Translations under genes and position numbers: made by a program
From: Rubrobacter xylanophilus
Lineage (GTDB): Bacteria; Actinomycetota; Rubrobacteria; Rubrobacterales; Rubrobacteraceae
Direction of reading: 5' to 3'
Assembly: GCF_007164525.1 (NCBI RefSeq)
Contig: NZ_AP019791.1
Coordinates: 2,281,501-2,345,500, forward strand
DNA length: 64,000 nt
The notes under the pieces: model-generated
What the model was told of the DNA's origin: nothing
What the model saw: only the letters and a program-made list of their open reading frames with translations
Databases searched by the model: none
In this document: piece by piece, positions 5,945-35,158 of the stretch
How positions within the stretch are numbered: position 1 is the stretch's first letter
Layout: the number at the start of each line of letters is the position of its first letter

Positions 5945-7814
5945 ACTCGACCGCAGGGATTGGGTGTACCTGTTCGGCCTTCTCGCACCCCTCACCGTCT
6001 ACAATCTGCTCCTGAAGGCTGTTCGGATCGCCTCGCTGCCCGACGAACACGGCTTTCTCGGCTCCCTCGCGTTGATTCGCTCGGACCTTCTCTTTAACCT
6101 CGGATACGCGCTCCTATGGATGGGCCTCTTTGCCGTTGCCAGGAGAGGCTTTCCACGGTGGATGGTCTTGGTGCTCTTCCACGCTTCGGCGGCCACGGTC
6201 GCCCTCATCACGACGGCGTACCACCGGTTCTTCTTAGTCACCGGCTCGGCGCTCGACGCCGACACCGTCCTCTTCTTCCTCTCCTCACCGAAAGAAGTCG
6301 GGGCCGTTGCCCTCAGCGAAGTCACGCTGCCGCTGGTCATCGTGGTGATCATCTCCCTCGCCTACGCGGTCTTCGGCCCCCTGACTCTGGTGCACCTGGT
6401 GTTCCACGGCCGCACCGCGACTGCGCCGGGCGGTGGAACGGTTGAGAGTCCCTGGCTCACCTTCTCCGGCATGGCTCTCCTGGCCTACGCGCTTGTCTCG
6501 CTCTCTCTTCTGCCCGGCGGGGGACCGGCCGGTGCCAGCGAAACCTTCGCCCGGGACGCCTTCGTCAACGTGGCGCTCTCCGAGGTCAAGGGCTCCACGG
6601 CGCCGCTCCCGCCGGTGAATGCCCGGAAGATCCGGGATGGCCTCCCCACCAAGGCGCGGCTGGAGCCGACGGCTCAGGCCAAGCAGCGCAACGTCGTCCT
6701 CATCCATCTGGAATCCACGCGCGCACGCTCGGTCACCCCCTACAACAGGGACATCCGGACGACGCCCTTCTTGAACGAGCTCTCGAAGAAGAGCCTGTTC
6801 GCCGAGCGGGCCTACACCGTAGTCCCGCACACCACCAACGCGCTCGTCGCGGCAACCTGCGGCATAGATCCCCCGGACCGCAGCGGGACGTCTTCCGTGG
6901 GAGACGACATCCCGGCCCGCTGCCTGCCCGAACTGCTGAACGAACAGGGCTACAAGTCCGTCTACTTCACCTCCTCGGTCCAGACCTTCGAGCGGCGCCC
7001 GGAGGTCGTGAAGCAGATGGGTTACAAGGAATTCTACCCGGTAGAGACGATGGACACGGACGGCTTCCAGAAAGCCAACTACTTCGGCTACGAGGACGAC
7101 GTGATGCTGGAGCCGAGCCGCAAGTGGCTCAAGAAGAACGGTGACAAGCCGTTCATAGCCACCTACGAGACGATAACGCCCCACCACCAGTATCTCGCTC
7201 CGGATAAGCGCTACGGGCGCAAGCAGTTTGCCGAAGATGCCGTCCTCAACCGCTACCAGAACACCGTGCGGTACGTGGACTTCTTCGTGAAGAACCTCAT
7301 AGAACAGTACAAGGAGATGAGACTCTACGGGAGCACGATCTTCGTGATCTACGGCGACCACGGCGAGGCCTTCGGCGAGCACGGCCGCTACCAGCACGAC
7401 AATGTGGTCTGGGAGGAGGGGCTGCGCATACCGATGATGATCGTTGACCCCTCGCATCCCGCGCAGCGCATCGGGAAGCCCGTCAACCAGCTGGACATCC
7501 TGCCGACCGTCGTAGATTTGCTGGGCTACAGGATCTCGGGCGGGAAGTACCCTGGCTACTCCATCTTCGATCTGCCAAAGGACCGCACGCTGAAGTTCAG
7601 CTGCTGGTACGAGAAAAAGTGCCTCGCGAGCCTGAAGGGCGCCAGCAAGTACATCTACCACTTCGGCGACCGCTCCGAGGAGCTCTACGACCTCTCGAAG
7701 GATCCGCTGGAGCAGAACAACCTTGCCGGTGAAGCGCCGCCGGAGGAGTTCAGGGAACGGCGCGAAGAGCTGCTCCGGTGGTACGCCCGGGTCAACGCGA
7801 TCTACCCGCCATAG
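5925..7814 (+). CDS. Membrane-bound sulfatase/LTA synthase-like phosphotransferase
   Basis: 629 residues. The first ~200 contain about five membrane helices, followed by an extracellular alkaline-phosphatase-fold sulfatase domain (about 255-600). Metal and nucleophile positions match the LTA synthase group: Glu263 in LIHLEST, Thr303/304 in PHTTNALVA and Asp478-His479 in YGDHGE. Members transfer phosphoglycerol or phosphoethanolamine to lipids or sugars, or cleave sulfate or phosphate esters. A role in modifying envelope polymers is the best inference. The start lies within an 18-bp tandem repeat, so a change in repeat number would alter the start. Confidence 0.85.
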   Translation: MRERSFILDRRDWVYLFGLLAPLTVYNLLLKAVRIASLPDEHGFLGSLALIRSDLLFNLGYALLWMGLFAVARRGFPRWMVLVLFHASAATVALITTAYHRFFLVTGSALDADTVLFFLSSPKEVGAVALSEVTLPLVIVVIISLAYAVFGPLTLVHLVFHGRTATAPGGGTVESPWLTFSGMALLAYALVSLSLLPGGGPAGASETFARDAFVNVALSEVKGSTAPLPPVNARKIRDGLPTKARLEPTAQAKQRNVVLIHLESTRARSVTPYNRDIRTTPFLNELSKKSLFAERAYTVVPHTTNALVAATCGIDPPDRSGTSSVGDDIPARCLPELLNEQGYKSVYFTSSVQTFERRPEVVKQMGYKEFYPVETMDTDGFQKANYFGYEDDVMLEPSRKWLKKNGDKPFIATYETITPHHQYLAPDKRYGRKQFAEDAVLNRYQNTVRYVDFFVKNLIEQYKEMRLYGSTIFVIYGDHGEAFGEHGRYQHDNVVWEEGLRIPMMIVDPSHPAQRIGKPVNQLDILPTVVDLLGYRISGGKYPGYSIFDLPKDRTLKFSCWYEKKCLASLKGASKYIYHFGDRSEELYDLSKDPLEQNNLAGEAPPEEFRERREELLRWYARVNAIYPP

Positions 7815-7820
7815 CCCGAT

Positions 7821-8591
7821 CTAGAAGCTCAAACTTATTATCCCGAGCGCCCACAGGGCGGCGATGAGCACCGGCTGGTGCACCAGGTAGATGAAGAGGG
7901 TGTTCCTCCCGATGAGAGCCAGGGCGGAGACGACGCGCCCGGGCGGCTCCCCGGCCCGGTGCCGCTCCCGCCAGGGCAGGTAGACGGCGTTGCCGCAGAA
8001 GACGCCGAACAGCACCACCCCGAACCAGGGCAACAGCGGCCGGTAGTCCGGCATCATGAGCCCCTCCGGCAACACCCCGAGCGGGGCGAGCAGCACCCCC
8101 GCCGCACCGCCCACCACGAAATCTTTCGCACCCACGTAGGCCCCGAAGGCAATGATGAGGAGGCCGAGGACCAGGTTTGCCCACCGGAGCCGCAGAAACG
8201 GGTAGGCGAGGACGATGGAGACCCCGATGAGGTGCAGGATGCCGAAGATGACGTACCCGTAGTCCAGCAGGCGGAAGACCAGCGTGATAAGCATGCCGTA
8301 GGCGAAGATCCTCATCCCCCGCCCGAGGTACTTGCCGAACGTGGGCCTGGCGGCCCTCCGGTGGCTCAGCGTGAGCGAGAGCCCCGCCAGAAACACGAAC
8401 ATAAAGGCGCTCGCGTCGGCGAAGGCGGCCCAGAAGCCGGAGGTGGACGCTATGGGGTAGCCGCCGAAGTTGTCCAGGTCGAAGACGAGGTGGTAGAAGG
8501 CCACCATGATCATGGCGACCCCCCGGGCGGCATCGACGTCCCAGAAACGGCCCTCCCGCCTCCCCTTCCCCCCGGCCATCCCGAAGAGCAC
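7821..8591 (-). CDS. DUF1624 membrane acyltransferase (HGSNAT catalytic-domain-like)
   Basis: 256 residues with seven or more membrane helices. The N-terminal RFWDVDAARGVAMIMVAFYHLVFDLD block is the hallmark of the heparan-alpha-glucosaminide N-acetyltransferase-like family, with an Asp and His in the first helix. The conserved ending is GRNTLFIYLVHQPVL. These proteins are thought to move acetyl groups across the membrane onto sugars or to act as membrane acyltransferases; the substrate here is unknown. It lies 18 bp downstream of the primosome-like operon and converges with the sulfatase. Confidence 0.82.
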   Translation of the reverse strand: MLFGMAGGKGRREGRFWDVDAARGVAMIMVAFYHLVFDLDNFGGYPIASTSGFWAAFADASAFMFVFLAGLSLTLSHRRAARPTFGKYLGRGMRIFAYGMLITLVFRLLDYGYVIFGILHLIGVSIVLAYPFLRLRWANLVLGLLIIAFGAYVGAKDFVVGGAAGVLLAPLGVLPEGLMMPDYRPLLPWFGVVLFGVFCGNAVYLPWRERHRAGEPPGRVVSALALIGRNTLFIYLVHQPVLIAALWALGIISLSF

Positions 8592-26556: not shown

Positions 26557-27849
26557 ATGACCCAGCGCGCCACCACGCCGATGATCCTGGCCCTGCTGGT
26601 GAGCACCCTGGGGTTCGCCACCCTCATCTTCGTGCAGGAGGCCACGAGCCCTCCGCTCATCTACGGGGCCTATTACGCGGGGACGCTGTTTGCGCTCTAC
26701 CTGGCGGTGCGCGTAATTCTCCCCCACTCCGACGTTTTGCTCCTGCCCATCGTGACCCTGCTCACCGGCATCGGGCTGGTCATGATCTTCCGGCTCACCT
26801 ACGACGTGGAGGGGGTCGAGAACCTCGCCATAACCCAGGCGGTCTGGATCCTCATCGGCAGCGGGGCGCTGCTGCTCATCGTCCTCCTCTTCCGCGACTA
26901 CGAGCGCCTCTTCGACTACAAGTACCTCTTCGCGCTGGCCGCGGTGGCGCTCATCTGCCTCACCTTCACCCCGCTCGGCTACGAGGTAAACGGGGCCCGG
27001 CTGTGGGTGCGGTTGGGGCCGGTCAACTTCCAGCCCTCGGAGTTCGCCCGGATAGCGCTCATCATCTTCTACGCCGGGTATCTGGCGGAGAAGCGGGATC
27101 TTCTGGCGGCCACCAGCAGGAGCGTGCTGGGCGTCCAGATCCCCTCCCCGAAGTACTTCGGGCCGGTCGCCCTGGTGTGGGCCGTCTCGCTCGGGCTGCT
27201 GGTCTTCGAGCGCGACCTGGGAAGCAGCCTGCTCTTCTTCGCCGTGCCGTTGTTGATGCTCTACGTGGCCACCGGACGTCTCGCCTACGTCATCATCGGG
27301 GGGCTCATGTTCTCCGGCGGGGCCTTCGCCACCTACCTGCTCTTCGACCACGTACGGGTCCGGGTGCAGACTTGGCTCGACCCCTGGCAGAACCCCGACG
27401 CCGAGGGCTTCCAGATCCTGCAGAGCATCTTCAACATCGCCGACGGCGGCATCACCGGCACGGGCCTGGGGGCCGGCTTCGCCCAGACCATCCCCGAGGT
27501 CCACACCGACTTCATCTTCAGCGCCATCGCCAGCGAGCTGGGACTGCTGGGGGCCACGGCGGTGCTTTTGGCCTTCCTGGTGTTCGTCTACCGGGGGATC
27601 AAGATCTCCCTCCTCGCCGGGGACGACGCCTCGAAGCTGCTCGCCTTCGGGCTCACCACCATGTTCGCCCTGCAGACCCTCATCATCGTAGGGGGTGTGA
27701 CCCGCCTGATCCCGCTGACCGGCATAACCCTGCCTTTCGTCTCCTACGGCGGCTCCTCGGTGGTCGGCAACTTCATCCTGACGGGGCTGTTGCTGGTCGT
27801 CTCCGAGAAGGCCGGCCGACGCGGGCCGGGGAAGGGAGCCGCCAGGTGA
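26557..27849 (+). CDS. RodA/FtsW-type SEDS peptidoglycan polymerase
   Basis: 430 residues with about ten to twelve membrane helices. SEDS signatures are GARLWVRLGPVNFQPSEFAR, the catalytic-region loop with ERDLGSSLLFF, and the C-terminal RLIPLTGITLPFVSYGGSS. SEDS proteins polymerise lipid II with a class B PBP partner. The partner PbpA-type gene begins inside its stop codon (GTGA), which is the usual cognate arrangement. By position this is the RodA paralogue of the pstP-rodA-pbpA cluster, but RodA and FtsW cannot be told apart with certainty here. Confidence 0.92.
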   Translation: MTQRATTPMILALLVSTLGFATLIFVQEATSPPLIYGAYYAGTLFALYLAVRVILPHSDVLLLPIVTLLTGIGLVMIFRLTYDVEGVENLAITQAVWILIGSGALLLIVLLFRDYERLFDYKYLFALAAVALICLTFTPLGYEVNGARLWVRLGPVNFQPSEFARIALIIFYAGYLAEKRDLLAATSRSVLGVQIPSPKYFGPVALVWAVSLGLLVFERDLGSSLLFFAVPLLMLYVATGRLAYVIIGGLMFSGGAFATYLLFDHVRVRVQTWLDPWQNPDAEGFQILQSIFNIADGGITGTGLGAGFAQTIPEVHTDFIFSAIASELGLLGATAVLLAFLVFVYRGIKISLLAGDDASKLLAFGLTTMFALQTLIIVGGVTRLIPLTGITLPFVSYGGSSVVGNFILTGLLLVVSEKAGRRGPGKGAAR

Positions 27850-29378
27850 ACGCCCACGTCCGGCGCACCTTCTACCTCTTCGTCGCGGGCTTCGTGGCCC
27901 TCATCGGGATGCTGGCCTACTGGCAGGTCTACGCCCGGGAGTCGCTGGCCAACAACCCCGAGAACGGGCTGCAGACCCGCAGGGCCATAGAGAGCCCGCG
28001 CGGCCTCATCTTGGCCCGCGACGGGGAGACGGTCCTGGCCCGCAGCGTAGAGCGGCCCTCCGAGAGCGGCAACAACCCCACCTACGAGCGGGTCTACCCC
28101 CAGGGGCCGCTCTACGCGGGGGTCGTCGGCTACTGGAGCACCCGCTACGGGGCCACCGGGATCGAGATAGCCGAGAACTCCAACCTCTCCGGCAACGCCG
28201 ACCCGGCCACCCTCGACGAGCTGATCAACCAGATCTCCGGCGGCCCCCGCCCCGGCAACAACGTCACCCTGACCATAGACCCGCAGCTGCAGCGCCTGGC
28301 CTACGAGCTTTTGGCGGCGAGCAACACCGGCCGGGGCTCGGTGGTGGCCGTGGACCCGAAGACGGGGGAGATCCTGGCGCTGGTCTCCCACCCCTCCTAC
28401 GATCCGAACAACATAGACGACCGTTTCCGGGAGCTGCAGCAGGACCCCTCCCAGCCGCTGCTGAATCGGGCGACACAGGGGCTCTATCCCCCAGGATCGG
28501 TCTTCAAGGTGGTGACCGCCGCGGCCGCCCTCAAGAGCGGGGTCTCACCGACCGCCGTCTTCTTCGACGACGGGACCTACGAGCAGCCCGGCTACACCGT
28601 CACCAACTACGGCGGGGCCTCCTACGGCCGGGTGACCTTCGCCCAGGCGCTCGCGCTCTCCATAAACACCGTCTTCGCCCAGATAGCGGTCGAGGAGGTG
28701 GGCCGGCAGCTGCTCTACGCCACCGCCCGGGACTTCGGCTTCGGCTCCTCCTACGAGGAGTTCCCGCTGGAGATCTCCGCGAGCCGGCTCGGCGAGGGGA
28801 ACCTGGCCCAGATCGCCTTCGGCCAGGATACCGTGCTCTCCAACGTCTTCCAGATGGCGCTCGTCGCGGCCACGGTCGCCAACGACGGCACCATGATGGA
28901 ACCGCACCTGGTGAAGGAGGTGCGCTCCCCGGACGGGATCATCATAGAGCGCGCCTCCCCGCAGAGGGAGCGCGAGGTGCTAGACCCGCAGACCGCCGCC
29001 ACCCTTAAGGAGATGATGGTCGGGGTGGTGGAGAGCGGCTCGGCGACGGCGGCGCAGATAGCGGGGGTCGAGGTCGCCGGGAAGACCGGAACGGCCGAGG
29101 TCCCTCCCAACGCCCCCCACTCCTGGTTCATCGCCTTCGCCCCCGCCGACGACCCCCGGATAGCCGTGGCCGTGCTGGTGGAGAACGGCGGCGACGGCGA
29201 GAAGCAGGCGCTGCCCATAGCCCGGCAGCTGATCGCCTCCTACCTCGATCTGCCCTCCCGGACCGCTCCGCAACAGAACCCCGCAGCCCCCAACCTTCCC
29301 GAAGGGCTGCCGCAACAGCTCCCCGGCGAGCTCCAGAACCTGCCGCAGCGGCTCTTCGGGGAGAACGGGAGGCCCTAA
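27846..29378 (+). CDS. pbpA: PbpA-type class B penicillin-binding protein (transpeptidase)
   Basis: 510 residues from a GTG overlapping the rodA stop by 4 bp. One N-terminal membrane anchor (about 8-27) precedes a short pedestal and the transpeptidase domain (about 145-470). Active-site motifs are SVFK (Ser218, Lys221), SIN (Ser272, Asn274) and KTGT (Lys413). The short N-terminal region fits PbpA rather than larger PBP2/3 proteins. It crosslinks peptidoglycan with its SEDS partner. The C-terminal tail is Pro/Gln-rich with repeated LP and NLP units, probably extended into the wall. Confidence 0.93.
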   Translation: MNAHVRRTFYLFVAGFVALIGMLAYWQVYARESLANNPENGLQTRRAIESPRGLILARDGETVLARSVERPSESGNNPTYERVYPQGPLYAGVVGYWSTRYGATGIEIAENSNLSGNADPATLDELINQISGGPRPGNNVTLTIDPQLQRLAYELLAASNTGRGSVVAVDPKTGEILALVSHPSYDPNNIDDRFRELQQDPSQPLLNRATQGLYPPGSVFKVVTAAAALKSGVSPTAVFFDDGTYEQPGYTVTNYGGASYGRVTFAQALALSINTVFAQIAVEEVGRQLLYATARDFGFGSSYEEFPLEISASRLGEGNLAQIAFGQDTVLSNVFQMALVAATVANDGTMMEPHLVKEVRSPDGIIIERASPQREREVLDPQTAATLKEMMVGVVESGSATAAQIAGVEVAGKTGTAEVPPNAPHSWFIAFAPADDPRIAVAVLVENGGDGEKQALPIARQLIASYLDLPSRTAPQQNPAAPNLPEGLPQQLPGELQNLPQRLFGENGRP

Positions 29379-29381
29379 ATG

Positions 29382-29387
29382 TATAAT
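29382..29387 (+). promoter_or_regulatory. TATAAT -10 box 8 nt before the pknB start
   Basis: A perfect TATAAT lies in the 17-bp gap between pbpA and pknB, followed after 8 nt by the GTG at 29396. pknB therefore probably has its own leaderless transcript besides cluster read-through. Confidence 0.65.
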
Positions 29388-29395
29388 CCAGCACC

Positions 29396-31366
29396 GTGCA
29401 GCAGCTCGTGGACAACCGCTACCGTATCGTACGGCGGCTGGGCAGCGGGGGGATGGCGGACGTCTACCTCGCCCACGACGACGTCCTGGACCGGGACGTG
29501 GCCCTGAAGGTCCTGAGCAGCCAGTACGCATCGGACGCCGAGTTCGTCGAACGCTTCAAGCGGGAGGCCCAGAGCGCGGCCGCCCTCGCCCACCCGAACA
29601 TCGTCTCCATCTACGACCGGGGGGAGGCCGAGGACGGCACCTACTACATCGCCATGGAGTACCTGCCCGGCGGGACGCTGAAGGACAGGATCCTCCGCAA
29701 GGGGCCCCTCCCGCCGAAGACGGCGGCCGCGGTGGCCCTGCAGATAGCCGAGGCGCTGAAGGCCGCCCACCAGCGCGGCGTCGTCCACCGGGACATAAAG
29801 CCGCACAACATCCTGATCACCGAGTCCGGTGACCTGAAGGTCACGGACTTCGGGATCGCCCGGGCGGCCTCCTCCTCGACGATGACCCGGACCGGAGCGG
29901 TGCTCGGCACAGCCCACTACATCTCGCCCGAGCAGGCGATGGGCGAGCCGGTGGGCCCGCCGAGCGACCTCTATTCTTTAGGGGTGGTGCTCTACGAGAT
30001 GCTCACCGGACGGCTCCCCTACGATGCCGACACCCCCATAGGCATCGCCATGAAGCACGTCAACGGCCACCTGCGGCCGCCGAGGGAGGTGAACCCGGCC
30101 GTGCCGGCCGGGCTCGACGCCATAACGAGTCGCCTTCTCGCCAAGGACCCAGAGGACCGCTACCAGAGCGCCGACGAGCTCATGGAGGACCTGGAGCGCT
30201 TTTTGCGGGGGGAGGATCCGACGGCGGCCGCCCCGACGGCGGTGATGGGCCGGATCGGGCGGGACGAGACCGCCCCGACCCGCGTCCAGCCCGCCGTGGC
30301 CCGGGAGAGAAAGCGGCGGCGCTGGCCGTTCATCGCCCTGCTCTCGCTGGTGCTGCTCGCGCTGCTCGGGTTCGGCGGCTACCAGCTGCTGCAGGAGCGG
30401 GCGGGCGGCGAAGCCACCCCGCCGAGAATAGCGGTCCCCGACCTCCAGGGGATGCGCCTGGAGGAGGCCAGGTCTGAGCACGGGGACGACTTCGAGATCG
30501 TCGAGGGGGAGCGGCGCGACGGTCCCCGGGAAGCCGGGACCATCCTGGAGCAGGATCCCCCGGCCGGGGAACGGCTGGAGCGGGGCTCGGAGATCTCCGT
30601 GGTCGTGGCCAGCGGAGAGAACGAGGTCCCCGAGGTGGTGGACAGCCCCGAAGACGAGGCCCGAGCCGCGCTCTCGGAGGCCGGCTTCGAGGTGAAGGTC
30701 GAGGAGCGCGAGAGCAAGGAGAGCGAGGAAGGCCTCGTACTCGAGCAGAGCCCCGGGGGAGGCAGCACCGCGGAGGTGGGTTCCACCGTGATCATCACGG
30801 TCGGCACCGGGGTCCCCATGGTGGTGGTGCCGGACATCCCCTACGGATACACCGCCGAGCAGTCCAGACAGGTGCTGGAACAGGCTGGCCTCAGGCTCGG
30901 CAACGTCGGCTATGCCCCGAACGACCAGGTCGCCGAGGGCGGCATCATTGACCAGAACCCGCCGCCGGGCACCGAGGTGGAGGAGGGCAGCGCGGTGGAC
31001 ATCGTGCTCAGCTCCGGCCCGCCACAGACCGAGGTGCCGGACGTGGTCGGCCTCGACGTGAACGTGGCGGTGCAGCGGCTGAGCCAGGCGGGGCTGGGAT
31101 ACAACTTGATAGAACGCCAGAGCCGCAGGCCGGAAGGAACGGTGCTCGCCACGAGCCCGCCCGCGGGCTCCACGGTGGATCAGGGGACCGAGGTGCAGGT
31201 GGCCTACAGCGTCGGTCGGCCGGAGGAGACCACAACCCGGCCTCAGGAGAGCGCCGGCAGACAGGGAGCGGGCGAGAACCGCCGGCGCGAGGAGACCCAG
31301 CGGCAGAACCCCTCGGGAGGTCCGGGCGAACGCCGGCCGCCGAACCGGGAGGAAGAAGGCGACTGA
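29396..31366 (+). CDS. pknB: PknB-like Ser/Thr kinase with four PASTA domains
   Basis: 656 residues. The kinase domain (about 8-270) has LGSGGMADVY, Lys38, HRDIKPHN with Asp133, DFGIAR and GTAHYISPEQA; the Thr-rich activation loop (STMTRTGAVLGT) suits autophosphorylation. One membrane helix (about 304-324) leads to four PASTA repeats (about 340-610), each ending near DPPAG or SPPAGS-type turns, then a polar tail. PASTA domains sense muropeptides or lipid II. It ends the wall cluster and would phosphorylate FHA-bound partners, with PstP reversing it. Confidence 0.95.
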   Translation: MQQLVDNRYRIVRRLGSGGMADVYLAHDDVLDRDVALKVLSSQYASDAEFVERFKREAQSAAALAHPNIVSIYDRGEAEDGTYYIAMEYLPGGTLKDRILRKGPLPPKTAAAVALQIAEALKAAHQRGVVHRDIKPHNILITESGDLKVTDFGIARAASSSTMTRTGAVLGTAHYISPEQAMGEPVGPPSDLYSLGVVLYEMLTGRLPYDADTPIGIAMKHVNGHLRPPREVNPAVPAGLDAITSRLLAKDPEDRYQSADELMEDLERFLRGEDPTAAAPTAVMGRIGRDETAPTRVQPAVARERKRRRWPFIALLSLVLLALLGFGGYQLLQERAGGEATPPRIAVPDLQGMRLEEARSEHGDDFEIVEGERRDGPREAGTILEQDPPAGERLERGSEISVVVASGENEVPEVVDSPEDEARAALSEAGFEVKVEERESKESEEGLVLEQSPGGGSTAEVGSTVIITVGTGVPMVVVPDIPYGYTAEQSRQVLEQAGLRLGNVGYAPNDQVAEGGIIDQNPPPGTEVEEGSAVDIVLSSGPPQTEVPDVVGLDVNVAVQRLSQAGLGYNLIERQSRRPEGTVLATSPPAGSTVDQGTEVQVAYSVGRPEETTTRPQESAGRQGAGENRRREETQRQNPSGGPGERRPPNREEEGD

Positions 31367-31372
31367 CGCAAC

Positions 31373-31639
31373 CTACTCCCGACCAGAAGAGAGAAGCTCC
31401 CGCCCGACGTATCCGCGAAGCTCCCCGGCCTCCAGCTCCCTGGGGGGCCTCACCTCTATGAAGTCGTGGCGGCCTATGGCGTTCTCGTAGACCCACCCCT
31501 CCTCCACGGGCTTCGACCGTCCGAGGTCGTAGCCCGTCTCGTGGTAGGCGGCGCACAGCTCGCCGGAGGGAAGCTCCAGGATCAAGATGGGATGCCTGCC
31601 GGGGGAATAGGCTCGTATCTTCACCCTCGCCTGCTCCAC
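31373..31639 (-). CDS. Small hypothetical protein
   Basis: 88 residues, not recognised. It is a compact beta-rich sequence (KIRAYSPGRHPILILELPSG, HETGYDLG, HDFIEVRPP) without a signal peptide or membrane segment. It converges with pknB (6 bp between stops) and is divergent from the beta-CASP gene. GC-rich codon positions like its neighbours suggest it is real. A nearby upstream GTG or TTG start is possible. Confidence 0.5.
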   Translation of the reverse strand: MEQARVKIRAYSPGRHPILILELPSGELCAAYHETGYDLGRSKPVEEGWVYENAIGRHDFIEVRPPRELEAGELRGYVGRELLSSGRE

Positions 31640-31732
31640 ACCAGAAGTCTACAACGGGCGGCCGCCCGTAGGAAGGGCTCCGAGGGGACAGGATTTTTGC
31701 CATGCTAAAATTTCCTCGAGATGAGCCATATA

Positions 31733-31748
31733 TGTCATATACATTACA
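31733..31748. promoter_or_regulatory. Palindromic operator candidate before the beta-CASP gene
   Basis: TGTCATATACATTACA has the form TGTnATnTAnATnACA, an imperfect 16-bp palindrome in an unusually AT-rich stretch (about 31700-31750). It sits 19 bp before the start at 31767 and just before the AGAGGAGG ribosome site. It looks like a repressor site; the cognate protein is unknown. Confidence 0.4.
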
Positions 31749-31766
31749 TCTCCAGAGGAGGTCGCC

Positions 31767-34205
31767 ATGTCAGATATCACACCCGACGGTGGAGACGTTA
31801 GAGACACACAAAAGAAGCCCCCGCCGCAGGGGCCCCCGGAGAACCTGCCCGAGGAGTTTTTGCGGCGGCGGCTCGGCAGGATGGACACCCGCAGGGCGCT
31901 TGCGGAGCTGTGCAAGAGCGTACCGGGTTTGGAGGAGGCATTGCTCCCCCCCGGCATTCAGGCTGACGCTCTAACCCGTCGTTCCGGGAGCTCCCAGATG
32001 CTTCGCAGCGTCGCGCGCAGGATAAAGCAGGACGCCGCGGCATGGAGCGCCTTCAGGACGGCGGTGGTGGAGCAGATCCCACCGGAGACCTCTGAGGCGG
32101 TGGGGCGGCTCTCCGATGAGAACCTCGACGAGCTGCGCGAGGCCCACACCACGGAGGGTCTGCTGCTGGCCGCGCTCGTCTCGGAGGAAGGGGTGGAGCC
32201 CGGCCTTCTGGAGACGCTGGTGAAGCGCTGGGAGGAGGAGAACCGGCAGGAGGAGAAGAGGGCCCACCAGGACGCTAAAGTAAAAGAGCTCGAATCCCGG
32301 CTGGAGGAGCTCAAGAAGGACAACGAGCGTCTCTCCTTCGCCTCCCGGGTAGCCAACGAGCGGGCCGAGTCTCTCGCCGAGGAGGTGCGGCTGCTGACCG
32401 GCGAGCGGGAGAGCGCTTCGGCCAGGGTCAGGGAGGCCGAGGAGCGGGCCCGGGCCGCGTTGAGCGTCCGGGAGCGGCTCGATGAGAGGATCTCCGAGCT
32501 CGAGCGGCGGGGGGCCCAGCTGGAGCGGGCTCTCGAGAGCGAGCGGCAGGCCTACGCCCGAGCCGCCGAACGCCTGGAGGAGCTGCACGCCGAGTTCGAG
32601 CGGGTGGTGGCGGAGAGGGATCAGATCCGTGACGCGCTCCAGCATGCCCGGTTCACCGACGAAGGTTTCGGCGAGCTGCTGGTGCGGGCCATCAAGAACG
32701 AGGTCGAGGCCCTGCCGGATACTCTGGAGGCTACCGCTCACACCGCGCGGCTTTTGGAGTTCATGAGCAGAGTGCTCCAGGCCCACGCAGATCTGCGCGG
32801 GGACAGGGGGGGCACCTCTCCTTCCGCGCGCGAGGAGGAGGGCGAAGAATCGGAAACAGGCTCCCGGGCGGGCCGGCCGGAGCCAGCGGCAAAGAGCGAA
32901 GTCCTGCGGCCCGTCCGGGTGAAGTCACGGCCGACGCTGGCGTTCAGGGCGCTCGGCGGGGCCGGAGAGGTCGGCGGCAGCAGCCACCTCCTGGACTTCG
33001 GAAGCACCCGCGTCCTGGTGGACGCCGGCATAAAGCCTGACGGCCGGGGACAGCTGGCGCCGGACTTCGAGGGGCTCGGTCGTCTGGACGGAGCGATCAT
33101 CACCCACGCCCACCTGGACCACTGCGGGGCTCTGCCGCTGCTGGTCAGGAACCGTCCCGACCTCCCGATCTACTGCACACCGCCCTCCGCGAAGCTCATC
33201 ATCAGCGCCCTCAACGACCACGCGGCGATGGGCGGCGGGGTTCCGGGCGGCGCCCCGATACACGAGGTGAAAAGGCGGCTCGTGCCCGTTCCCTTCGGCA
33301 AGCCCTTCGAGGTGGGCGGCGCGACGGTGACCCTCACCGAGAGCGGGCACATCCTGGGCGCGGCCAGCGTGCTCCTCAAGAGCAACTCGGCGATGGTCTT
33401 CCACACCGGGGACATCTGCATGGAGGACCACTTCTCCATCCCCTCGGCCCGGTTGCCGGAGGTCAGCGGCATAGATCTGCTCATCATGGAGGCCACGCTC
33501 GCCGACCAGCGCCCCCAGCCGTTCAACGAGTCGATAAAGAAGATGGTGCGGGTCATAAACGAGACCACCCTCGACCGGGGCGGGACGGTCCTGATCCCGA
33601 CTTACGCGCTGGGGCAGGCGCAGGAGATAATCCTCGGCCTGAAATACTTCGGCAGGGAACACGGACTGGAGCGCGACGTGTTCATCTACGTGGACGGCTC
33701 GGTGGTCACCACCTCCGAGCGCCTCTACGCCGAGCAGCTGCGCTACATGAAGCCCTACCTGCAGCACACCGACCCGCGGGAGCTGTTCTTCGGCGAGAAC
33801 ATCCGGGCCGTCGCCAACGACGACCGGGCGCGGGAGCGGATCCTGGCGAACCCCTGCGCGATAATCGCCTCACCGGTCACCATGCAGGGTGGGGCGAGCG
33901 CCTTCTACCGCCGGAGGCTGGAGGGGAGCGAGCGTAACGCGGTCATCCTCCCGTCCAACGCCGCCTCTTCCTACGGCACCCACCGGGCCGTCGGCGAGGG
34001 CAGCAGCTGGCGGGTGGAGCGGGTGAGTTTCGCCGCCCACTGCACCCAGGAGGAACTTTTGGGGATCACGGAGAAGCTCTCGCCGCGCCAGATCATCCTG
34101 ATCCACGGCTCCAGGCGCCGCATCAGCGACCTGGCCTTCCGGCTGGCGCCGAAGCACAAGATCCACACCCCAGAGGTGGGCGAGACGGTGCGCACGGTAC
34201 TCTAG
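31767..34205 (+). CDS. Coiled-coil / beta-CASP metallo-beta-lactamase nuclease fusion
   Basis: 812 residues. Residues 1-150 are a helical domain rich in Arg and Leu, 152-295 a long coiled coil, 300-385 a linker, and 390-812 a CPSF-type MBL/beta-CASP nuclease. The nuclease has THAHLDHCG (447-452 region), GHILGAA (His528), HTGDI (Asp549), MEATLAD and a final LIHGSRRR, so metal ligands appear intact. Such enzymes are RNA endo- or 5' exonucleases. The ribosome site AGAGGAGG precedes the ATG. A small winged-helix gene follows after 4 bp. The long N-terminal fusion is unusual for bacterial members and may dimerise or scaffold it. Confidence 0.8.
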   Translation: MSDITPDGGDVRDTQKKPPPQGPPENLPEEFLRRRLGRMDTRRALAELCKSVPGLEEALLPPGIQADALTRRSGSSQMLRSVARRIKQDAAAWSAFRTAVVEQIPPETSEAVGRLSDENLDELREAHTTEGLLLAALVSEEGVEPGLLETLVKRWEEENRQEEKRAHQDAKVKELESRLEELKKDNERLSFASRVANERAESLAEEVRLLTGERESASARVREAEERARAALSVRERLDERISELERRGAQLERALESERQAYARAAERLEELHAEFERVVAERDQIRDALQHARFTDEGFGELLVRAIKNEVEALPDTLEATAHTARLLEFMSRVLQAHADLRGDRGGTSPSAREEEGEESETGSRAGRPEPAAKSEVLRPVRVKSRPTLAFRALGGAGEVGGSSHLLDFGSTRVLVDAGIKPDGRGQLAPDFEGLGRLDGAIITHAHLDHCGALPLLVRNRPDLPIYCTPPSAKLIISALNDHAAMGGGVPGGAPIHEVKRRLVPVPFGKPFEVGGATVTLTESGHILGAASVLLKSNSAMVFHTGDICMEDHFSIPSARLPEVSGIDLLIMEATLADQRPQPFNESIKKMVRVINETTLDRGGTVLIPTYALGQAQEIILGLKYFGREHGLERDVFIYVDGSVVTTSERLYAEQLRYMKPYLQHTDPRELFFGENIRAVANDDRARERILANPCAIIASPVTMQGGASAFYRRRLEGSERNAVILPSNAASSYGTHRAVGEGSSWRVERVSFAAHCTQEELLGITEKLSPRQIILIHGSRRRISDLAFRLAPKHKIHTPEVGETVRTVL

Positions 34206-34209
34206 GGAC

Positions 34210-34581
34210 ATGGAGCGTCCCGTGATCCCGGAGGTGATCCGGCTCCGCGACGCCCGCGGGAAGCGGCCGGAAGGAGCAGCCGGGGCCGGGGACTTCTGGT
34301 ACGACCCGGCGATCTGGCGTCTGCCCCTCTCCCCCGCCGCCCGGGTGCTCTACGCAGGCATCTGTGCCCACGCGGGACACGGCGAGATCAACCGCCAGGA
34401 CCTGCGCAGCCTGCTCAAAGGACAGCCCGACGGCGCGGTCGCCGCGGCCCTCTCGGAGCTCGCCGAGGCGAACCTCCTGGTCCCCGCGGGCGGCGACGAG
34501 CGGATCGCGGACCGGGAGATCCGGCCGGTCTCGGACTTCAGCCGGGGATCCTCAGCCGAACGGGGTAGGGCCGCCCGCTGA
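34210..34581 (+). CDS. Small winged-helix-like protein
   Basis: 123 residues. The central part (about 28-98), WYDPAIWRLPLSPAARVLYAGICAHAGHGEI followed by LKGQPDGAVAAALSELAEANLL, looks like the helix-turn-helix domain seen at the N-terminus of plasmid and phage replication initiators and DnaD-like proteins. It starts 4 bp after the beta-CASP gene, so they are probably co-translated. No other domain is seen. The 3' end overlaps the convergent gene by 44 bp. DNA or RNA binding is inference. Confidence 0.55.
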   Translation: MERPVIPEVIRLRDARGKRPEGAAGAGDFWYDPAIWRLPLSPAARVLYAGICAHAGHGEINRQDLRSLLKGQPDGAVAAALSELAEANLLVPAGGDERIADREIRPVSDFSRGSSAERGRAAR

Positions 34582-35158
34582 GCCTGTCCCGCAGGCTGTA
34601 GGGCCCCTCGTCCCACCTCCTCCCCACGCCGTCGGTGAGCGCCGCGAGGTCTATGAGCCTCCCCACTATCCGCAGGCAGAAACCGTGCACCGCCTCCTCC
34701 GGGTCGTCCACCCTCCCCCGCGACCGGGTGACGAAGAGCCCCTTGGTCTTCCAGACCCCGTCGCGGTAGACGGCGAAGATCTGGCATGGCTCCTCCCCCG
34801 CGGCCGGGCTCCAGCCCAGGATCCGCCCCGAGTAGCCGGCGGGGTCGAGGCTGTAGTGGCTGAGCTCCTCGTGCATGAGATCCTCGTCGGTCTCCGCGGC
34901 GGCGCCCCGCAGGAGCGCGAAGGCCACCGAGGCCTCCTCCGTCTCCCGGACCCGGAGAGAGATCAAACCCTCCGAGCGCTCCGCCGAGACCTCGAACCCC
35001 GCCCGGCGCGCCAGGGCGGATACCCGCTCCAGCCCGGAGAACAGCCGCCCGGAGAACTCGCGGGCCCGCTCCTCGGCCTCAAGGACGAGCCCCGCCGCAC
35101 GGTCGGCCTCCTCCCGGTAGCGCCGCAGCCGTGTAAGCGCCGCCTCCTCGAAGCCCAC
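34538..35158 (-). CDS. Hypothetical protein
   Basis: 206 residues, not recognised. The first ~50 residues form a predicted amphipathic helix or coiled coil (LTRLRRYREEADRAAGLVLEAEERA), followed by a mixed alpha/beta domain with HYSLDPAGYSGRILGW and CQIFAVYRDGVWKTKGLF. It lies 6 bp downstream of the SDR gene on the same strand. No signal or membrane segment is seen. Its C-terminal coding end is antisense to the winged-helix gene for 44 bp. Confidence 0.55.
   Translation of the reverse strand: MGFEEAALTRLRRYREEADRAAGLVLEAEERAREFSGRLFSGLERVSALARRAGFEVSAERSEGLISLRVRETEEASVAFALLRGAAAETDEDLMHEELSHYSLDPAGYSGRILGWSPAAGEEPCQIFAVYRDGVWKTKGLFVTRSRGRVDDPEEAVHGFCLRIVGRLIDLAALTDGVGRRWDEGPYSLRDRLSGRPYPVRLRIPG

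Follow-up and report, generated by a model that had tools for sequence, protein, structure and literature searches.

A single ORF in the window (the whole 64,000-nucleotide stretch analysed here, positions 2281501-2345500 of a 3.02-Mb single-contig genome) encodes a protein in which a helical N-terminal half is joined to a metallo-β-lactamase (MBL)/β-CASP/RMMBL nuclease. This fusion is present in all 39 genomes of the class Rubrobacteria, covering all 13 genera, as judged by a profile of the N-terminal half. A coiled-coil/β-CASP fusion had been proposed in a sequence-only reading of this DNA, and it proves to be real, with intact metal motifs. No description of the protein was found in the literature searched. 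The chemistry of the nuclease appears ordinary, while its architecture, conservation and leader appear unusual.

Architecture and distribution of the fusion protein

The fusion gene and its parts are as follows.

31767-34205, + strand: coiled-coil/β-CASP fusion protein, 812 aa, a single ORF
31842-32186, + strand: N-terminal helical domain, aa 26-140, of no known family and found only in Rubrobacteraceae
32199-32642, + strand: long coiled coil, aa 145-292, one predicted 148-residue helix
32661-32798, + strand: short helical segment, aa 299-344, strongly conserved in alignments A1/A2, with low model confidence
32931-34202, + strand: MBL + β-CASP + RMMBL nuclease, aa 389-812, from Pfam matches above cut-offs and alignment to structural relatives
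31373-31639, − strand: divergent conserved ORF, 88 aa, sharing the intergenic region

A clear ribosome-binding site, AGAGGAGG, lies 5′ of the fusion-gene ATG. Where the earlier reading counted almost 390 helical and coiled-coil residues ahead of the nuclease, we find about 385 that are predicted to be mostly helical; these comprise a globular part, then the 148-residue coiled coil, and after it a short pair of helices and a linker. In an AlphaFold2 model built from 33 family sequences, residues 1-28 form a disordered tail that is followed by helices at 29-138, and the linker after the helical pair runs to about residue 388, with the nuclease starting next. Confidence in the full-length model is low (mean pLDDT 62, pTM 0.39), and the relative placement of its parts is unreliable; within the N-terminal helical domain, pLDDT is mostly 58-86 and falls below 50 at residues 60-74. 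The 148-residue helix would most simply be part of a coiled-coil dimer spanning about 20 nm. The short helical segment carries a conserved RFTDxGFGELLVRAVKNEV stretch.

Searches of Pfam, NCBIfam and the PDB with the N-terminal half gave coiled-coil or sub-threshold matches only and no credible Pfam family, and the long coiled coil itself matched only generic coiled coils in Pfam and the PDB. Foldseek with the full-length model recovered the nuclease part alone among its best 50 matches. Known homologues of RNase J or CPSF do not share the N-terminal region. Within the titled genome collection, every homologue of the N-terminal half belongs to Rubrobacteraceae or to an actinobacterial MAG that would fit this family, and a GTDB-wide scan of 84,980 species returned 35 loci, all within this group and none outside it. 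The nuclease half is 76-96% identical within Rubrobacteraceae and at most about 37% identical to CPSF-type proteins from other actinobacteria. Such proteins were detected in 12 of the 180 genomes sampled outside the family. The earlier description of the arrangement as rare in bacteria is thus right for the N-terminal half and too strong for the enzyme type.

The N-terminal profile matches once in 34 genomes and twice in five. In three of these five (G005, G202 and G214), the two matches belong to a single broken-up gene, split in G005 by a frameshift in a run of C; the less complete assemblies G213 and G216 each contain two copies. At loci with enough flank, the fusion gene stands behind ftsW, a penicillin-binding protein gene and the PASTA-type kinase gene pknB, with the penicillin-binding protein gene undetected at one locus (L052). 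The divergent 88-aa ORF in between, which has no Pfam or NCBIfam match, occupies the same place in 23/23 family loci examined. The fusion gene is retained throughout the class and is syntenic at every locus examined, which makes it a core gene, probably with a core job. Searches of the class found RNase Y but no RNase E/G, which leaves room for a further RNase; a separate RNase J-like gene is also present.

The nuclease half and its altered motifs

Pfam places three domains at residues 414-798, each above its cut-off: Lactamase_B_2 (62.5 bits versus 27), Beta-Casp (40.8 versus 27.7) and RMMBL (36.0 versus 21.6). Alignment to PH1404, MTH1203, Mm0695 and Cas14 assigns motifs 1, 2, 3, 4, A, B and C to D419, HAHLDH 447-452, H528, D549, E575, H758 and H780, respectively, with residue roles as described for MTH1203 (PMC3095777). 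The ligands H447, H449, D451, H452, H528, D549, H758 and H780, together with D419 and E575, are invariant or nearly so in 33 relatives. The closest solved relatives are the aCPSF1 enzymes (PH1404, E 1e-38), Cas14 of type VII CRISPR, TTHA0252, Ysh1 and Int11, with RNase J structures being far weaker matches. By sequence, too, the nearest families are RNA nucleases, namely aCPSF1/FttA, TTHA0252, CPSF73, Int11 and Cas14. The nuclease is a divergent CPSF/TTHA0252-type enzyme, and the RNA-processing role suggested by the earlier reading is supported as probable.

Rubrobacter includes radiation-resistant species. This tolerance, together with the generic SMC/Rad50-like matches of the coiled coil, would fit a DNA-repair nuclease whose coiled coil bridges DNA ends. 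We judge this reading improbable: motif C is a histidine (His780), the extra ligand of RNA-type MBL nucleases that is absent from DNA-type enzymes (PMC8450076), the nearest families are RNases, the coiled-coil matches are compositional, and the compared neighbour genes are not repair genes.

The nuclease has the domains and ligands that define CPSF/TTHA0252-type β-CASP RNases and departs from further bacterial motifs of that type (GR.Q, SGM..GGR, GxQAxGTxGR, SAHAD and HGE). When compared to eight unfused CPSF-type proteins from other actinobacteria, the Rubrobacteraceae sequences have LADQ for YGDR, GQAQ for GR.Q, SPVTMQGGA for SASGM..GGR, AAHCT for SAHAD and HGS for HGE, and they lack the GFQAxGTxGRxL stretch along with roughly 11 residues. 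These substitutions are fixed or nearly fixed throughout the family. With these motifs altered or lost, the substrate groove may differ or activity may be lost; we consider the metal chemistry intact and the groove probably rebuilt. A further reading is that this is a catalytically repurposed β-CASP protein, which retains the two-metal site but, with its RNA groove remodelled, acts on another phosphodiester or functions mainly as a structural or regulatory subunit. The family-wide fixation of the lost and replaced motifs favours such repurposing, whereas the near-invariance of the metal ligands and both positioning acids would be unusual for a dead subunit, and RMMBL and Beta-Casp still score above their Pfam cut-offs. 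We hold repurposing to be rather unlikely.

The leader, its overlapping ORF and the winged-helix neighbour

The following features flank or overlap the start of the fusion gene, or follow its end.

31703-31711, + strand: extended −10 element TGCTAAAAT, conserved as TGnTARAAT
31721-31801, + strand: candidate upstream ORF of leaderless type, 26 codons and a stop, which shares the nuclease gene's first 35 nt
31733-31748, no strand assigned: imperfect palindrome TGTCATATACATTACA, 6/8 symmetric pairs
34210-34581, + strand: predicted winged-helix protein, 123 aa, a putative accessory partner, from a structural model and HTH_36 matches in relatives

The extended −10 element lies about 50-60 nt 5′ of the fusion-gene start codon. 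The TGnTARAAT sequence was present in 36/36 upstream regions examined and is invariant in alignment A6 (31/31), and no conserved −35 element was seen in the aligned upstream regions. The ATG of the upstream ORF is likewise invariant in 31/31 aligned leaders, 5-11 nt after the −10 element, with most neighbouring positions varying. With the transcription start placed from the position of the −10 element, this ATG sits at the predicted 5′ end of the transcript. It is mostly 43, 46, 49 or 52 nt 5′ of the main ATG, so indels preserve the frame of the upstream ORF.

In 27/32 loci, the upstream ORF is 25-26 codons long and stops exactly 35 nt inside the nuclease gene, at a TGA or TAG built from differing main-frame codons. 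Under synonymous recoding with the nuclease gene's own codon usage, a stop at +35 is expected in about 4% per locus, a figure to be read with the loci being related to one another and the counts not independent. Sequence variability climbs directly after this stop. Within the overlap, Ser2 is TCA and Asp3 is GAT in 29/29 sequences each, with the lowest codon entropy among all conserved serine and aspartate columns; TCA accounts for 4% of serines, and control starts from the same loci (ftsW, the penicillin-binding protein gene, pknB and o206) show ordinary codon variation. Codon-position periodicity is weak in the non-overlapping part of the ORF. In the R. marinus clade (L066-L068), the frame is changed and the stop lost with TCA GAT retained, and the stop is also lost at L080.

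The conservation of the upstream ORF suggests translational control of the nuclease gene, and from it we infer that the ORF is translated and inhibitory, the simplest reading being a competition between its translation and initiation at the start of the nuclease gene. The stop lies in a frame that would allow a programmed frameshift into the main frame, but this idea was rejected: the pre-stop codon varies (AAC, AAT, ACA, CGT or GAA), and there is a good ribosome-binding site ahead of the main start. As for structure in the leader RNA, RNAalifold gave only an unconvincing 4-pair stem, and no Rfam family was found in the leader.

The sequence-only reading had instead placed a palindromic operator in the promoter, with a winged helix that may guide or repress and the coiled coil acting as scaffold. 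The palindrome does exist; its position is 3′ of the conserved −10 element, within the part of the leader predicted to be transcribed. A palindrome as good occurs in 17% of shuffled leaders, or about 1 in 6 by chance, it is not retained in homologous leaders even within the same genus, and a genome search that tolerated up to one mismatch found no second copy. An operator role was rejected on the shuffles, the relatives and the whole-genome search, and regulation looks translational instead.

The 123-aa ORF starts 4 nt after the fusion-gene stop codon and is modelled as a winged helix (pLDDT 84.6). Foldseek with this model returned no close solved structure and nothing at E <0.5. The nearest Pfam family, HTH_36, matches 4/21 relatives (best E 3e-4) and does not match the 123-aa protein itself. 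The pair is conserved: the winged-helix gene lies directly behind the nuclease gene in 17/24 family genomes, usually overlapping it or within about 20 nt, with wider gaps of about 450-510 nt at L064 and L074. In most genera the two genes are translationally coupled. In three genera (g5, g8 and g13), the winged-helix gene is missing at the locus; relocation was rejected, as whole-genome profile searches were also empty. These genera retain the nuclease and its promoter, which argues against an integral guiding or repressing role for the winged helix and points to a coupled but dispensable accessory. Adjacency with start/stop coupling in most genera and the presence of an imperfect palindrome are what speak for a winged helix that binds the palindrome to repress or guide a scaffolded nuclease; given a palindrome at chance level, unconserved and single in the genome, and a partner absent from three genera, we give that reading very little credence.

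Proposed function and comparison with known systems

The reading we favour, with moderate confidence, is a housekeeping RNase dimerised by its coiled coil and docked through its N-terminal domain, with an optional winged-helix cofactor and upstream-ORF control. The enzyme would belong to the CPSF/TTHA0252 branch of β-CASP proteins, cut RNA in a metal-dependent way and be restricted to Rubrobacteria. The long coiled coil would form a homodimer and keep the N-terminal domain and the catalytic core some 20 nm apart; the N-terminal domain may dock the enzyme on a partner such as the ribosome, RNA polymerase or RNase Y, and the coupled winged-helix protein may serve as the cofactor. Expression would begin at the extended −10 promoter, and ribosomes entering at the 5′-terminal AUG would translate the upstream ORF and thereby lower initiation at the nuclease's own ribosome-binding site. 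The RNA substrate, the dimerisation and the docking and cofactor roles are inferred. The housekeeping reading is favoured by the complement of RNases in the class, with no RNase E/G found and RNase Y and an RNase J-like gene present. It is further favoured because TTHA0252, the closest bacterial relative to have been characterised, alters mRNA levels globally in Thermus (PMC4229858) and the activity of MTH1203 is raised by dimerisation (PMC3095777). The main doubt comes from the groove: it has probably been rebuilt, and the enzyme could then have another substrate. More tentatively, and with about the same reserve as repurposing, the protein may be a class-specific hub, in which a helical docking domain on a coiled-coil stalk brings the remodelled nuclease to RNA polymerase or the ribosome in a role like that of RNase E or FttA, at a level set by the upstream ORF.

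Rubrobacteria, where RNase E/G was not found, all keep a β-CASP nuclease with an architecture not previously reported. Should it act as a docked general RNase, this would be one more way in which RNA-processing scaffolds are built, and the unusual groove would lend itself to asking which β-CASP residues RNA cutting requires. In turn, the upstream ORF with its overlap can be tested as an instance of leaderless translational control beyond mycobacteria. Its pattern fits that of the overlapping leaderless small ORFs described in mycobacteria, which have an AUG at or near the transcript 5′ end and an end inside the downstream gene (PMC4633059); the Rubrobacteria ORF differs in being predicted from sequence, with a predicted transcription start.

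Among MBL/β-CASP RNases, RNase J differs from the fusion in domain layout, and the RNase J models score far below their cut-offs (TIGR00649, 41.9 versus 400 bits; NF047419, 35.3 versus 820 bits). The Cas14 equivalog likewise scores 134.2 versus 800 bits, and no cas genes are among the compared neighbour genes. TTHA0252 of Thermus thermophilus (PDB 2dkf) shares the MBL/β-CASP/RMMBL core and all metal motifs at about 26% identity and, like the Rubrobacteria enzyme, is bacterial and distinct from RNase J. Unlike the fusion, it is a 431-aa protein without an N-terminal extension, and motifs of the SAHAD, SGM and GTxGR type are replaced or lost in the fusion, as judged against actinobacterial counterparts. 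The long actinobacterial NYN ribonucleases (C-terminal PF05991) have the same layout of a small helical N-terminus, a long coiled coil, a linker and a nuclease, but the nuclease is a different one; homology of the N-terminal parts was rejected (hhalign probability 0.4%), with only the coiled coils matching, which is meaningless. Finally, aCPSF1/FttA (PH1404, MTH1203) gives the best NCBIfam (E 8e-54) and PDB matches to the nuclease, although its TIGR03675 model scores 182.9 bits against a cut-off of 580.2. This archaeal termination RNase carries a large extension ahead of the nuclease, as does the Rubrobacteria fusion. In aCPSF1 the extension consists of two KH domains, which have no Pfam match in the fusion protein, whereas in Rubrobacteria it is helical with a coiled coil.

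A candidate overlapping upstream ORF in the nuclease leader

The leader of the 812-aa coiled-coil/beta-CASP nuclease gene contains a candidate upstream ORF, identified by its conservation in an alignment of 31 leaders from Rubrobacteria relatives:

31721-31801 and homologous leaders: candidate upstream ORF of 25-26 codons

In this alignment, the ORF opens with an ATG where the transcript is predicted to begin, and the Ser2/Asp3 codons of the nuclease gene are frozen as TCA GAT. In the window and in most homologous leaders, it overlaps the nuclease start over 35 nt. On these sequence features, we consider it a candidate leaderless regulatory ORF.

Genomic setting and flanking ORFs

The nuclease gene is flanked by the following features:

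26557-31366, +: cluster of ftsW with genes for a penicillin-binding protein and a PASTA kinase, immediately 5' of the locus
31373-31639, -: divergent 88-aa ORF between pknB and the nuclease gene
34538-35158, -: 206-aa ORF downstream of the locus

The 88-aa ORF, which keeps the same place across the Rubrobacteraceae, has no Pfam or NCBIfam match, and its start also looks leaderless, with a -10-like TAGACT lying a few nucleotides upstream. The 206-aa ORF is convergent with the gene for the 123-aa winged-helix protein, overlapping 44 nt of its 3' end; its identity within the family is 51-90%, and a family search returned no significant match. In near-complete relatives, the nuclease locus lies ~20 kb from the contig start, and it is probably near the replication origin.

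Altered loci, and RNase E/G and RNase Y in the class

At one relative's locus (L046, 10700-11570, genome G021), an insert of ~0.8 kb follows the nuclease stop, replacing the winged-helix gene. By eye, its products look like a DUF433-type antitoxin and a PIN-like (DUF5615-type) toxin. After these comes a degenerate copy of the last ~80 bp of the nuclease gene, which corresponds to the search match at G021:C194:29486-29566. At another locus (L053, oriented, about 7795-7830), the N-terminal half of the fusion is split by a frameshift within a poly-C tract. This split occurs in one near-complete genome, G005, and is due either to a mutation that arose recently or to an error in sequencing. Across the 23 Rubrobacteria genomes searched, RNase E/G (PF10150) was not found, while RNase Y (PF12072) is present in all 23.
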